The notes under the pieces: generated by a model
The model's database searches: none
The model's input: only the letters and a program-made list of their open reading frames with translations
What the model was told of the DNA's origin: nothing
Shown here: piece by piece, positions 29,970 through 55,363 of the stretch
How positions within the stretch are numbered: position 1 is the stretch's first letter
Layout: each line of letters starts with the position of its first letter
Assembly: GCF_004114375.1 (NCBI RefSeq)
Contig: NZ_CP034692.1
Coordinates: 2,232,001-2,296,000 of the forward strand
Length of the DNA: 64,000 bases
Source of the DNA: Halorubrum sp. BOL3-1
GTDB taxonomy: Archaea; Halobacteriota; Halobacteria; Halobacteriales; Haloferacaceae
Reading direction: 5' to 3'
Made by a program: the position numbers and the translations under genes

Positions 29970-30070
29970 AAGCCCCAGCCTCGTCGGTCGCCGTCGCTTC
30001 GCTTTGGCGACCGACTCCCTCGCGGGCGGTTCGCGGGTGCTGTCGCACCCGCTCATCGGCGCGCCACCGA
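29970..30070 (+). repeat. Dispersed palindromic element, type A copy
   Basis: Starts AGCCCCAGCCTCGTCGGT, contains CCGACTCCCTCGCG and ends GGCGCGCCACCG. Related copies lie at 44011 (reverse), 52766 and 54052. Internal hairpins are present, including a GGCGACCGAC/GTCGGTCGCC pair. The 200 bases that follow up to the tRNA show a small palindrome near 30190 but no gene. Confidence 0.65.
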
Positions 30071-33797: not shown

Positions 33798-33870
33798 CGC
33801 CCGGAGCGGGATTTGAACCCGCGTCACGACCGTGACAGGGTCATATGATGGGCCACTACACCATCCGGGC
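33798..33870 (-). tRNA. tRNA-Asp (anticodon GTC), copy 1
   Basis: 73 nt including discriminator G. Acceptor GCCCGGA/TCCGGGC, T-arm GCGGG-TTCAAAT-CCCGC, anticodon loop CTGTCAC giving GTC. Sequence identical to copy 2 about 100 bases on. Confidence 0.93.
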
Positions 33871-33900: not shown

Positions 33901-33973
33901 CGCCCGGAGCGGGATTTGAACCCGCGTCACGACCGTGACAGGGTCATATGATGGGCCACTACACCATCCGGGC
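33901..33973 (-). tRNA. tRNA-Asp (anticodon GTC), copy 2
   Basis: Identical to the gene at 33798-33870 over all 73 nt. The 30 nt between them are unrelated to the tRNA. On the minus strand this is the upstream copy of the tandem pair. Confidence 0.93.
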
Positions 33974-43791: not shown

Positions 43792-44010
43792 CGACGGACT
43801 CCGTTCCTCTCCAACCCGAACTGACGGGTCACGTTTCGCGGTTCTTTCGCTTTCCGACACGCGGAGCGACGGCGCCCGTCCGCGTCGAGAGGCGTGTTTC
43901 ACTCAGTGAGAGCCACGACAGACAGCGGGAGTAGATACATCTGATCGGTGGGAATGAGACCGTATTTAAACGGATTGTGAGCGACTGTGACGGGTATTTA
44001 TAAAAGCGGT

Positions 44011-44107
44011 GCGGTGGCGCGCGCCTCCGGCGGCCGCGAGGGGCGCGTGCGAGGGAGTCGCCGGCGGCGATAGCCGCCAGCGACGAGGCCGGGGAGGTGT
44101 GAGGCTG
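44011..44107 (-). repeat. Dispersed palindromic element, type A copy (minus orientation)
   Basis: On the minus strand it carries CCTCACACCTCCCCGGCC, then TCGTCGCT, a GGCGGCTATCGCCGCC hairpin, GACTCCCTCGC, and ends GGCGCGCGCCACCG. It lies in the 730-nt gene-free interval between rpsG and aconitase, next to a type B copy. The rest of that interval (43792-44010 and 44231-44520) shows no gene. Confidence 0.7.
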
Positions 44108-44133
44108 CGGTCGCGGGGCGGGATTCAAAATGG

Positions 44134-44230
44134 CAGCCATGAGGCCGGCGTACGCTCGCTGCGCTCCTCGCTCGGTCGCTTTCGCTCCCTCGTTGCGGTG
44201 CTTGCCTCGCCTACGCCGGCCTCATGGCTG
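44134..44230. repeat. Type B palindromic element with 19-bp perfect arms
   Basis: Arms CAGCCATGAGGCCGGCGTA (44134-44152) and its exact reverse complement (44212-44230). The centre contains CTCGCTGCGCTCCTCG and CGGTGCTT, both shared with the copy at 53928. It is paired with the type A element at 44011; read on the minus strand, B precedes A as it does at 53928-54168. Confidence 0.75.
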
Positions 44231-44521
44231 GGGCTTTGGAGGCGTTCGTCACCGATCAGTAGTCAACGATTTATAGGTAAGCGACCGGGGTTTTGTAGGC
44301 CGTTACCGCAGAGCCGCCGGTCGCTTATAAACTGCCGACAGCAACACCGCCCGATCACGTATAAACAACCACTCCACAACCGTGTGATACCCACTCTCGC
44401 CCTCTATCACGCCCGTAGCGGCGCCGATCCGTCGATCCGTACAGCCACCGCTGAAAGGTGAGACGCCGAAAAATCGGAAAGACGGGTGTCCGAACTGCGC
44501 GTCGCTCGCGGGACAGCGCGC

Positions 44522-52713: not shown

Positions 52714-52765
52714 ACTGAGTGTCCAGAACAGCAACTATGCCACTTCTCGCAAGGAATCGTATAAG

Positions 52766-52880
52766 CCTCACGCCTCCCCGGCCTCGTCGCTCGCTCCAGG
52801 CTCCCTTCGGTCCCTCGCGGCTCGTGGGCCGATGGCCCGCCCGCAGGCACGCAGGGAGGCGCGACGCGCCTCTTGTAGCC
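52766..52880 (+). repeat. Dispersed palindromic element, type A copy
   Basis: Begins CCTCACGCCTCCCCGGCC, then TCGTCGCT, shared with the copies at 44011 (reverse) and 54052. Its later half is more divergent (GGTCCCTCGCGG, then a GAGGCGCGACGCGCCTC hairpin). It fills much of the 292-nt gap before nadE. Confidence 0.6.
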
Positions 52881-53005: not shown

Positions 53006-53842
53006 ATGAGCCAGACCCCGGAGCAGTCGGTGTTGCTGTCTGACGACTCCCCGCTCGACCTCCGCCTGTCGGAAGACGAGTTGGAGGCGACCCGTGAGCG
53101 CGTCGTCTCGTTCATCTCGGATCTCGTCGACGACGCGGGCGCCGGGGGGGCGGTGCTGGGTCTCTCGGGGGGCATCGACTCCACGCTGACCGCGCACCTC
53201 GCCGTCGAGGCGCTCGGTGAGGACGGTCTCCACGGACTCACGATGCCCTCGGCGGTGAACGACCCGGACGTGATGAGCGACGCGGAGCGCGTCGCGGCCG
53301 ACCTCGGCATCGAGTACGACGTCGTCGAGATCCAGCCGATCGCGGAGGCCGTCTTCGACGCGTTCCCGGAGGCGGCCGACGACCGCACGGCCGCGGGCAA
53401 CGTCTACGTTCGCACGCGGGCGGTGTTGAACTACTTCGTCGCCAACGCCGAGAATCGGGTCGTCCTCGGGACGGGGAACCGCGCCGAGGCGATGACGGGC
53501 TACTACACGAAGTACGGCGACCAGGCGGTCGACTGTAATCCCATCGGGAACCTCTACAAACAACAGGTGCGTCAGCTGGCCGCCCACGTCGGCGTCCCGC
53601 GCGAACTGGTGATGCAGGAGCCGACCGCGGGCATGTGGGAGGGACAGACCGATGCCGAGGAGATGGGTCTCGACTACGACACCGTCGACGCGATCCTCGC
53701 GGTACACGTCGACGGCGGCCTCTCGCGGGCGGCGACGGTCCGCGAGCTCGACGTCCCCGAGGAGGCGGTCGACCGCGTCGTCGACCTCCACGAGCGCAGC
53801 GCCCACAAGCGCGCGATGCCGCCCGCGCCCGAGCGGGAGTAG
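53006..53842 (+). CDS. nadE: NAD+ synthase
   Basis: 278 residues. Final step of NAD synthesis, amidation of deamido-NAD. The ATP pyrophosphatase P-loop 'GLSGGIDSTLTAHLA' is near residues 50-64, with 'VVLGTGNRAEAMTGYYTKYG' and 'CNPIGNLYKQQVRQLAAHVG' further on. There is no N-terminal glutaminase domain, so ammonia is the expected nitrogen donor. A TATA-like AGGTATTAG about 28 nt upstream suggests a leaderless mRNA. Confidence 0.96.
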   Translation: MSQTPEQSVLLSDDSPLDLRLSEDELEATRERVVSFISDLVDDAGAGGAVLGLSGGIDSTLTAHLAVEALGEDGLHGLTMPSAVNDPDVMSDAERVAADLGIEYDVVEIQPIAEAVFDAFPEAADDRTAAGNVYVRTRAVLNYFVANAENRVVLGTGNRAEAMTGYYTKYGDQAVDCNPIGNLYKQQVRQLAAHVGVPRELVMQEPTAGMWEGQTDAEEMGLDYDTVDAILAVHVDGGLSRAATVRELDVPEEAVDRVVDLHERSAHKRAMPPAPERE

Positions 53843-53927
53843 TGCGGCTTCCGGTCCGGAGCGGCCGGCTTCGAGGTCCCGGTCGCTCGGCTGTACGTTG
53901 TCACGATCGAGAACACCGCCGAAGCCC

Positions 53928-54021
53928 CAGCCGCGAGGCAGTCGGACACTCGCTGCGCTCCTCGTCGCTCACTCCGTTCGCTCCCGCGGTGCTTACGTCG
54001 TCTCCGACTGCCTCGCGGCTG
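53928..54021. repeat. Type B palindromic element with 19-bp perfect arms
   Basis: Arms CAGCCGCGAGGCAGTCGGA (53928-53946) and its exact reverse complement (54003-54021). The centre shares CTCGCTGCGCTCCTCG, TTCGCTCCC and CGGTGCTT with the copy at 44134, although the arms differ at several paired positions. A type A element follows 30 nt later. Confidence 0.75.
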
Positions 54022-54051
54022 CCCCTTCGAGTCCCGCCCGACCGCCCCGCA

Positions 54052-54168
54052 CCTCACGCCTCCCCAGCCTCGTCGGTGGGCCTCCGCTTCGCTCCGGACC
54101 ACCGACTCCCTCGCGCGTGCCGTCTCGCGGTCGCCGAGGGTGACCGCTCGCGGGCACGCGCCACCGCC
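54052..54168 (+). repeat. Dispersed palindromic element, type A copy
   Basis: Starts CCTCACGCCTCCCCAGCC then TCGTCGGT, contains CCGACTCCCTCGCG, and ends CGCGCCACCG. With the type B palindrome before it, this makes a composite of about 240 bp. It fills the 420-nt interval between nadE and the TrpD paralog, where no gene is seen. Confidence 0.7.
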
Positions 54169-54262
54169 AAAACCCCTCGTTTCGTCTCCGGCGGCTGATC
54201 GGTGACGATTCGTTAAAATCCCGACCTGCGTTCGACGTTCAGTCCGACCGAGCGCGTCCGTC

Positions 54263-55363
54263 TCAGAACTCGCGGAGGTCGTCGAGCACCGCCGCGGCGG
54301 AGCCGTCGTCGATCGCCTCGCGGGCGACCTCCAGCCCGTCCTCGATGGAGTCGGCGTCCTCGCCGGCGTAGATCCGGAGCGCGGCGTTGACCGCGACCGC
54401 GTCCGCGAAGGCGCCGTCGCGCTCGCCGGACAGCACCTCCTCCGTAATCTTCGCGGAGTCGGCGGCGACATCGTCGACCGCGAGATCCTCCTCTTCGAGG
54501 TCCATCCCGTACTCGGCGGTCTCGATCTCGAAGTCGGTGAAGCTCGCGCTCTCGGACCCGTCCTCGTCGTCCGCGTCCCCGCCCGCCGCGTCCCACTCGG
54601 CGACCTTCGTGTAGCCGGGGCGGACGTCGTCGTACCCCTCCATGCCCTGGAACATCAGGACGCGGTCGAGGTCGTGGAACTCGCTTTCCACGAAGGTGTC
54701 GACGACCTTCTTCGCGAACGCGAGGTGGTAGAAGGAGCCGAGGTGGACCGAGGCGCCGGCGGGGTTCGCCAGCGTCTCGACCGTGTTGACGAACGATCGG
54801 ACGCCCACCATGTCGCGGCGCTCGAACAGGTCGTCGATCGCGGGGTTGAACGCGGGCTGGTAGTAGAAGCCGAAGCCGGTCTCGTCGACCATGTCGGCGG
54901 AGTCGGACGGCGTCAGCTCGGTGTGGACGCCGAGTTCGTCTAAGACGTGTTTGTACGCGTCCTGCTTCTGCGTGGGGACGCGGTCGCCGGAGTGGACGAC
55001 GACCGGGGTGCCCGCGGCGGCCGCGACCGCGCCGGCCGCGACGCCGAAGATTGCGGTCCGACCCTTCCCGTCGTAGTTGGCGCCGCAGTCGACGGGGTCG
55101 GCGTCGGGTTCGGCGTACTCGACGCGCTCGCACATCACGTCGACGTACGCGCCCAGCTCCTCCGCCGTGTTCCGCTTCCAGCGGTTCGCGAGCCAGAACG
55201 CCCCGAGCGTCGTCGGGTCCGGCTCGCCCCCGAGGATGCGTTCGAACGCCTCGGTCGCCTGCGCCCGAGTCAGGTCATCCGCGGACTTGTGCCCGGAGCC
55301 GCAGACCTCGGTCATCAACCGCTTGAGGGGCCAGTCACCGAACTCCTGTGTCGCCTGAGCCAT
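54263..55363 (-). CDS. TrpD-like phosphoribosyltransferase paralog (divergent)
   Basis: 366 residues with the anthranilate phosphoribosyltransferase fold: helical N-domain ('[20 protein letters not shown]'), then the PRPP-binding region. The canonical GTGGD loop is replaced by '[20 protein letters not shown]', and the usual KHGNRS by '[19 protein letters not shown]', so tryptophan synthesis is unlikely. '[20 protein letters not shown]' is well preserved. An acidic insertion of about 45 residues ('[16 protein letters not shown]' and onward) interrupts the C-domain. No trp genes are nearby. It resembles the TrpD2/YbiB-type group, whose role in archaea is not established. Confidence 0.75.

Follow-up and report, generated by a model that had tools for sequence, protein, structure and literature searches.

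A palindromic composite repeated between genes of Halorubrum is probably the folded interior of a short non-autonomous transposable element

According to the description in PMC3119063, Haloquadratum carries MITEs, PATEs and SMRs, among them SMR-A of Haloquadratum walsbyi, which is approximately 110 bp long and has highly similar copies. PATEs, as far as PMC10544981 describes them, lack terminal inverted repeats and resemble the ends of IS605; one published PATE is transcribed, and the Halorubrum virus HRTV-DL1 carries a PATE of 489 bp. In bacteria, MITE/BIME-like repeats (REP, GTAG/CGTC-tagged), in the account of PMC3733652, are intergenic palindromes of composite, modular and mosaic build, present in tens to hundreds of copies.

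We analyzed a window of 64,000 nucleotides from Halorubrum sp. BOL3-1 (NZ_CP034692.1, positions 2,232,001 to 2,296,000), the window being this whole stretch of DNA, in which an earlier note had pointed out two copies of a composite of a palindrome (B) and a second palindromic block (A), joined by a common spacer. Both composites were confirmed in the window sequence in opposite orientations, each with the spacer TCCCGCCC. In relatives, the composite forms the interior of a 430–540 bp unit with terminal inverted repeats of approximately 18 bp, GATAGCGGGAGTGGGTAT. Like SMR-A as presented in PMC3119063, the unit has terminal inverted repeats which are not tied here to a known transposon, shows no target duplication and is too short to code; it may likewise be inserted among other palindromic repeats. 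Unlike SMR-A, it is four times longer, has a conserved multi-hairpin interior and reaches at least 150 diverged copies. PATEs share its non-coding, palindromic nature, its length range and its haloarchaeal hosts (PMC10544981), whereas the terminal inverted repeats of the unit depart from the PATE architecture of IS605-like near-terminal palindromes without such repeats. Since the first 5 kb of HRTV-DL1, which hold its PATE, do not match our element profile, that PATE is a different element. The element resembles the bacterial repeats of PMC3733652 in its composite, modular and mosaic build, its intergenic location and its copy number, but is longer, archaeal, built of GA-ladder hairpins and bounded by terminal inverted repeats, and it has no RAYT association: the flanks of the resident Y1 transposase gene, where this was checked, do not carry the repeat, and its modules measure approximately 100–125 bp rather than the 20–40 bp of short tagged palindromes. 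With respect to the definition of MITEs given in PMC3119063, terminal inverted repeats are present in relatives and around the 44-kb copy of the window, and at 2 of 99 places in this genome; unit lengths of 335–603 bp (one of 122 bp) are too short for a transposase gene; and the target duplication which often accompanies MITEs was not seen at three recent copies. It is most suitably classed as a MITE/SMR-like haloarchaeal element in which the conserved fold is unusual. No description of this family was found in the open-licence literature, subscription papers being outside the search.

A DNA profile from 60 own-genome copies matched the 54-kb composite at an E-value of 1.7e-60 and positions 44011–44249 at 4e-28. 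Two single A blocks, which the earlier note had listed as standing alone, scored far lower (4e-9 and 5e-5 for those at 29973 and 52763, respectively; Table 1). The block near 29970 is a composite which has lost B: the same site holds a full composite in the relatives G324 and G323, and its junction is consistent with a deletion between two CCCCAGCC repeats. Genome-wide, the A core GACTCCCTCGCGCG occurs 104 times with at most one mismatch, compared to one match for a reversed-pattern control, so that the similarity within the window is not due to chance. A covariance model of B found 107 copies, and the absence of further copies, named in the earlier note as grounds for abandoning the element, clearly does not apply. 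The composite occurs approximately 90–107 times and totals approximately 25 kb of this chromosome. Of the 104 core matches, 100 are listed, all on contig C3 (3.37 of 3.67 Mb); at equal density, approximately 9 would be expected on the remaining 0.29 Mb. A downstream terminus together with an A or B motif accompanies 92 of 101 examined cores, and all four motifs sought accompany 73 of 101; thus, the composite is the usual form. The 92 were taken as elements and the other nine cores were dropped.

Table 1. Positions of the element and its parts in the window (for the 54-kb composite and the 44-kb unit, the strand is the folding strand).
Feature	Position	Strand	Remarks
54-kb composite	53910–54166	−	both terminal inverted repeats looked for around it, not found
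B palindrome, 54-kb copy	53914–54032	−	outer helix CGAAG/CTTCG, internal loop GGG/GGG, long stem with covariation, apex with GA ladder
A block, 54-kb copy	54043–54166	−	hairpins A1 and A2
Hairpin A1, 54-kb copy			GGTGG..CCACC around GCGAAGC apex
Hairpin A2, 54-kb copy			GCGCGTGC..GCACGCGC
Whole inverted-repeat unit, 44-kb copy	43921–44404	+	484 bp; repeat matches at C3:2275921 (+) and C3:2276387 (−), at distances of 163 and 303 bp to the linker anchor
Left terminal inverted repeat, 44-kb copy	43921–43938	+	decayed, GACAGCGGGAGTAGATAC, 4 mismatches
Right terminal inverted repeat, 44-kb copy	44387–44404	−	decayed, GAGGGCGAGAGTGGGTAT, 3 mismatches
A block, 44-kb copy	44009–44096	+	two hairpins; edges by eye from sequence
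B palindrome, 44-kb copy	44116–44240	+	edges by eye from sequence
A block alone	29973–30069	−	B lost between CCCCAGCC repeats
Weak A-like block	52763–52852	−	second half replaced by other hairpins

Read on the strand that folds, which is opposite to the B-to-A reading of the earlier note in both window copies, the order is hairpin A2, hairpin A1, a G-rich linker, hairpin B, and then at least one unit of 51–69 bp ending in CTGGGGCTTYGG. Hairpin B combines its outer helix and internal loop with a long stem and a laddered apex. Several copies contain additional hairpins inside B or A, a B-type apex replaces A1 in some, and 3 of 60 aligned copies (L133, L250 and L223) carry the section of B between its stems in inverted orientation. 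No coding capacity was found in the element, in agreement with the earlier note.

The search with a covariance model which that note had proposed was conducted for B and gave matches across Halorubrum and the wider family. Under strict filters, with no more than 21 matches scored per genome, 50 of the 52 Halorubrum genomes had B, as did 68 of 118 genomes elsewhere in the family, in 21 of 28 genera. The copy number of B per genome extends from 2 (G309) and 10 (G052) up to at least 150. The exact A core in the form GACTCCCTCGCRCG matched at least three times in each of 19 sampled Halorubrum genomes; other genera had 0 to 4 matches per genome, except one with 14. When named genomes were scanned with the pattern, most of the records matched were from Halorubrum; scattered chance-like matches elsewhere were kept in the scans. 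Among 72,556 plasmid records, three matched the 54-kb copy, three the unit of the relative G318 and none the 44-kb copy, and 50,697 phage records gave no match. None of 29 viral contigs was among the B copies found, and the viral contigs had no exact match to the terminal inverted repeat.

In the relative G318, three copies are 99.1–99.6% identical across exactly the 440 bp spanned by the repeat pair. The edges are sharp and coincide with the inverted repeats GATAGCGGGAGTGRGTAT; outside of them, the three places are unrelated and have no consistent similarity, which shows that the unit is mobile. The 430–540 bp unit was, hence, recently copied to unrelated places within the genome of one relative, and the suggestion in the earlier note of a small non-autonomous mobile element is borne out by these copies and their terminal inverted repeats. 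Repeat pairs with matching spacing also enclose the composite in several further species and around the 44-kb copy of the window. At 30 distinct repeat-bounded places, the A/linker motif was present in 29 and B in 27, and the composite adjoins all 20 unpaired repeats examined. Repeat matches numbered 113 in G318, 82 in G302, 10 in G317 and 4 in this genome (reversed-pattern controls: 0, 0, 0 and 1). Here, the repeat accompanies just 2 of 99 anchored places, so that most copies in this genome are relics or have other ends. Both ends of the unit abut GANC-like bases, and the flanks of the three recent G318 copies contain no consistent direct repeat. Neither the 30 repeat-bounded places nor the 20 unpaired repeats sampled held an autonomous copy, and at the places sampled in G318 and G302 no transposase lay between such repeats. 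The sequence just outside the repeats (L388–L407) is itself repetitive, facing inward on both sides (GTTGAAATCC..GTCGCTGAAGACTGCTTCTTGATC); perhaps this is a second element serving as a target. In this genome, C3:602871 and C3:735174 share 349 bp at 99.1% identity; the left edge of this stretch is CAGTACAGA-like, its other end lies inside B, and both ends differ from those of the G318 unit; this pair is a recent duplication or conversion.

Orthologous sites were found to be occupied, empty, A-only or occupied in the opposite orientation. A comparison of G324 and G004 gave counterparts for five of six G324 elements, and each of the two genomes has one site which is empty in the other. At two aligned sites shared by these genomes, stems and close flanks differ and the genes are nearly identical. 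The 54-kb site is occupied, as judged by the profile, in 8 of 30 genomes, and the orientation in our genome is unique, the other seven carriers having the opposite one; in a ninth genome, G290, an A block with linker lies farther from the site. The same intergenic gap (53842–54263, orthologous L062–L090) contains a conserved open frame of approximately 49 codons, CxxC..CxxC and zinc-ribbon-like, in 15 of 30 Halorubrum genomes. The frame is missing from our genome, and none of the 30 genomes has both frame and element.

Conservation of the fold was assessed on 60 B sequences, in which 96.9% of the cells are paired compared to 88.1% in shuffles, and 113 cells have double changes compared to 42.7; neither value was reached in any of 500 shuffles, and sliding the partner destroyed the signal. 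Among 76 own copies, 65 have CGAAG/CTTCG as the outer helix, whereas the 113 copies from other genomes include 72 with CAAAG/CTTTG and 28 with CGAAG/CTTCG. The state of this genome is largely common to H. tebenquichense, G004 and G323; thus, the two sides of the helix change together and copies are alike within a species. The laddered apex (GA NN GA NN, loop, NN GA NN GA, with complementary NN) is present on the folding strand in 117 of 157 B copies, on the other strand in 3 of 157, and in none of the shuffles. Triloops are GNA in 74 of 98 cases; all 19 tetraloops are GNNA, and only four of these GNRA. On one strand, covarying stems, GA/GA ladders and GNA/GNNA loops are conserved in different copies and species alike.

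Folding energy was better on the strand opposite to that of the earlier reading in 60 of 60 cases, but as z-scores against shuffles were equal on both strands (−4.0 and −4.2, 20 elements), strand choice by energy was dropped and the strand was judged by pair types and loops. Counted over 13 pairs of B in 189 copies, G-U outnumbers A-C on the folding strand by 96 to 27; omitting the strongest single pair leaves 49 and 25, a modest excess (p = 0.007, relatedness ignored). The evidence for the strand is partly confounded, given the equal energy scores, the modest wobble excess and the inverted B interiors. GNRA is the typical RNA loop, while GNA loops of the d(GCGAAGC) type form unusually stable DNA mini-hairpins. 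Extraordinarily stable DNA mini-hairpins in general are described in PMC10527192. The apical loops would accordingly resemble single-stranded DNA (ssDNA) more than RNA, which favors ssDNA without amounting to proof; the apices of B and A1 carry this argument, as the G-N-A preference in A2 and nested hairpin loops is weak. For the structured RNA suggested in the earlier note, the covarying, one-strand fold speaks in favor and the more ssDNA-like loops against. In Rfam, no family was found at gathering score and one chance-like miRNA match had an E-value of 0.025.

These results have to be weighed for different kinds of repeat. A REP/BIME- or PATE-like repeat, whose ssDNA hairpin would be mobilized in trans by a Y1 (IS200-type) transposase in the manner of REP/RAYT systems or IS605-derived PATEs, would account for multi-copy intergenic palindromes with ssDNA-like hairpins on one strand; PATEs are described in haloarchaea (PMC3119063), and this genome has a single Y1 transposase gene. 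However, no composite is found within 1.5 kb of that gene, the ends of its Y1/IS605 element look unrelated to those of the unit, and the complete unit has the terminal inverted repeats which PATEs by definition lack. Further, a Y1 match is missing from 11 of the 52 Halorubrum genomes, including G004, G033, G044 and G298 with 120, 107, 106 and 75 B copies, respectively. Due to these counts and the unrelated ends, a Y1 transposase was rejected as a required partner, and such a repeat is very improbable. A structured RNA or a chromosomal DNA-structure module (e.g., for nucleoid or replication) under selection and passively spread agrees with the covarying stems, the species-wide co-change of the outer helix of B, the location of the listed matches on the main chromosome and a core conserved where the ends are not. 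It is nevertheless difficult to reconcile with copy numbers of B differing that widely among species of one genus, with the varied states of orthologous sites and with the lack of a consistent gene orientation and of an Rfam family, and we consider it quite improbable.

A further alternative is an intrinsic terminator or 3′ UTR module. Our own simple gene caller placed 26 of 92 copies between convergent genes, 50 between tandem genes and 16 between divergent ones. For this reading, 76 of 92 copies adjoin one gene 3′ end or more, and the flanks are weakly T/A-rich. Still, the 16 divergent cases do not fit, 31 of the tandem contexts have the folding strand antisense to the genes and 19 have it in sense, and 250 bp with two multi-hairpin blocks are unlike a terminator. 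The statement in the earlier note that the elements lie mostly beyond gene 3′ ends is therefore weak, its terminator module gains no support from the context of these copies, and this explanation is extremely improbable.

We conclude that a short, non-autonomous transposable element of the MITE/small-mobile-repeat type is probably present, with the composite as its folded interior, which codes for nothing. A mobile element with a conserved fold is well supported in the relatives, and for this genome the assignment is inherited by similarity. A transposase or recombinase would act in trans on the inverted repeats and place the unit beside GANC-like bases, with no duplication of the target. Old copies would shed their ends and retain the folded core, whose hairpins would be swapped, inverted or lost, and homogenized within each species; with less confidence, the folded form might be ssDNA, recognized in transposition or replication. 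As the composite is better kept than the repeats, something besides this transposition may maintain it. A more specific proposal, which we consider unlikely, is a conserved ssDNA fold, built of 2-bp steps that alternate with tandem G·A pairs under GNA/GNNA caps and of exchangeable hairpin cassettes, which a recombinase other than Y1 would read during movement. The element would in that case represent a chromosome-confined archaeal class with MITE-like inverted repeats and a dependence on folded ssDNA. The element recurs in most Halorubrum genomes. Should the fold act as ssDNA without a Y1 transposase, it would point to an unrecognized way of moving DNA in archaea; should it be selected as RNA, it would be an abundant uncharacterized RNA family. 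Either reading would explain conspicuous intergenic palindromes and offer a natural example of concerted evolution accompanied by compensatory changes.

Some smaller features were observed besides. Other small double-hairpin sequences are located inside A or B in our genome (L015, L018, L019, L027 and L028), with arms joined by TCTGGCA or TGATGA-like spacers, which suggests further families of tiny palindromic elements. The tandem units 3′ of B on the folding strand, each ending in CTGGGGCTTYGG, are spaced by 51, 54, 57, 63, 66 or 69 bp, multiples of three in most cases. A gene was considered for this 51–69 bp unit and rejected, as its frame is open in some species but interrupted by a stop in others, and a clear start is lacking. 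Elsewhere in the window, two neighboring tRNA genes (33798–33870 and 33901–33973) have identical Rfam scores and are likely a tandem duplicate.
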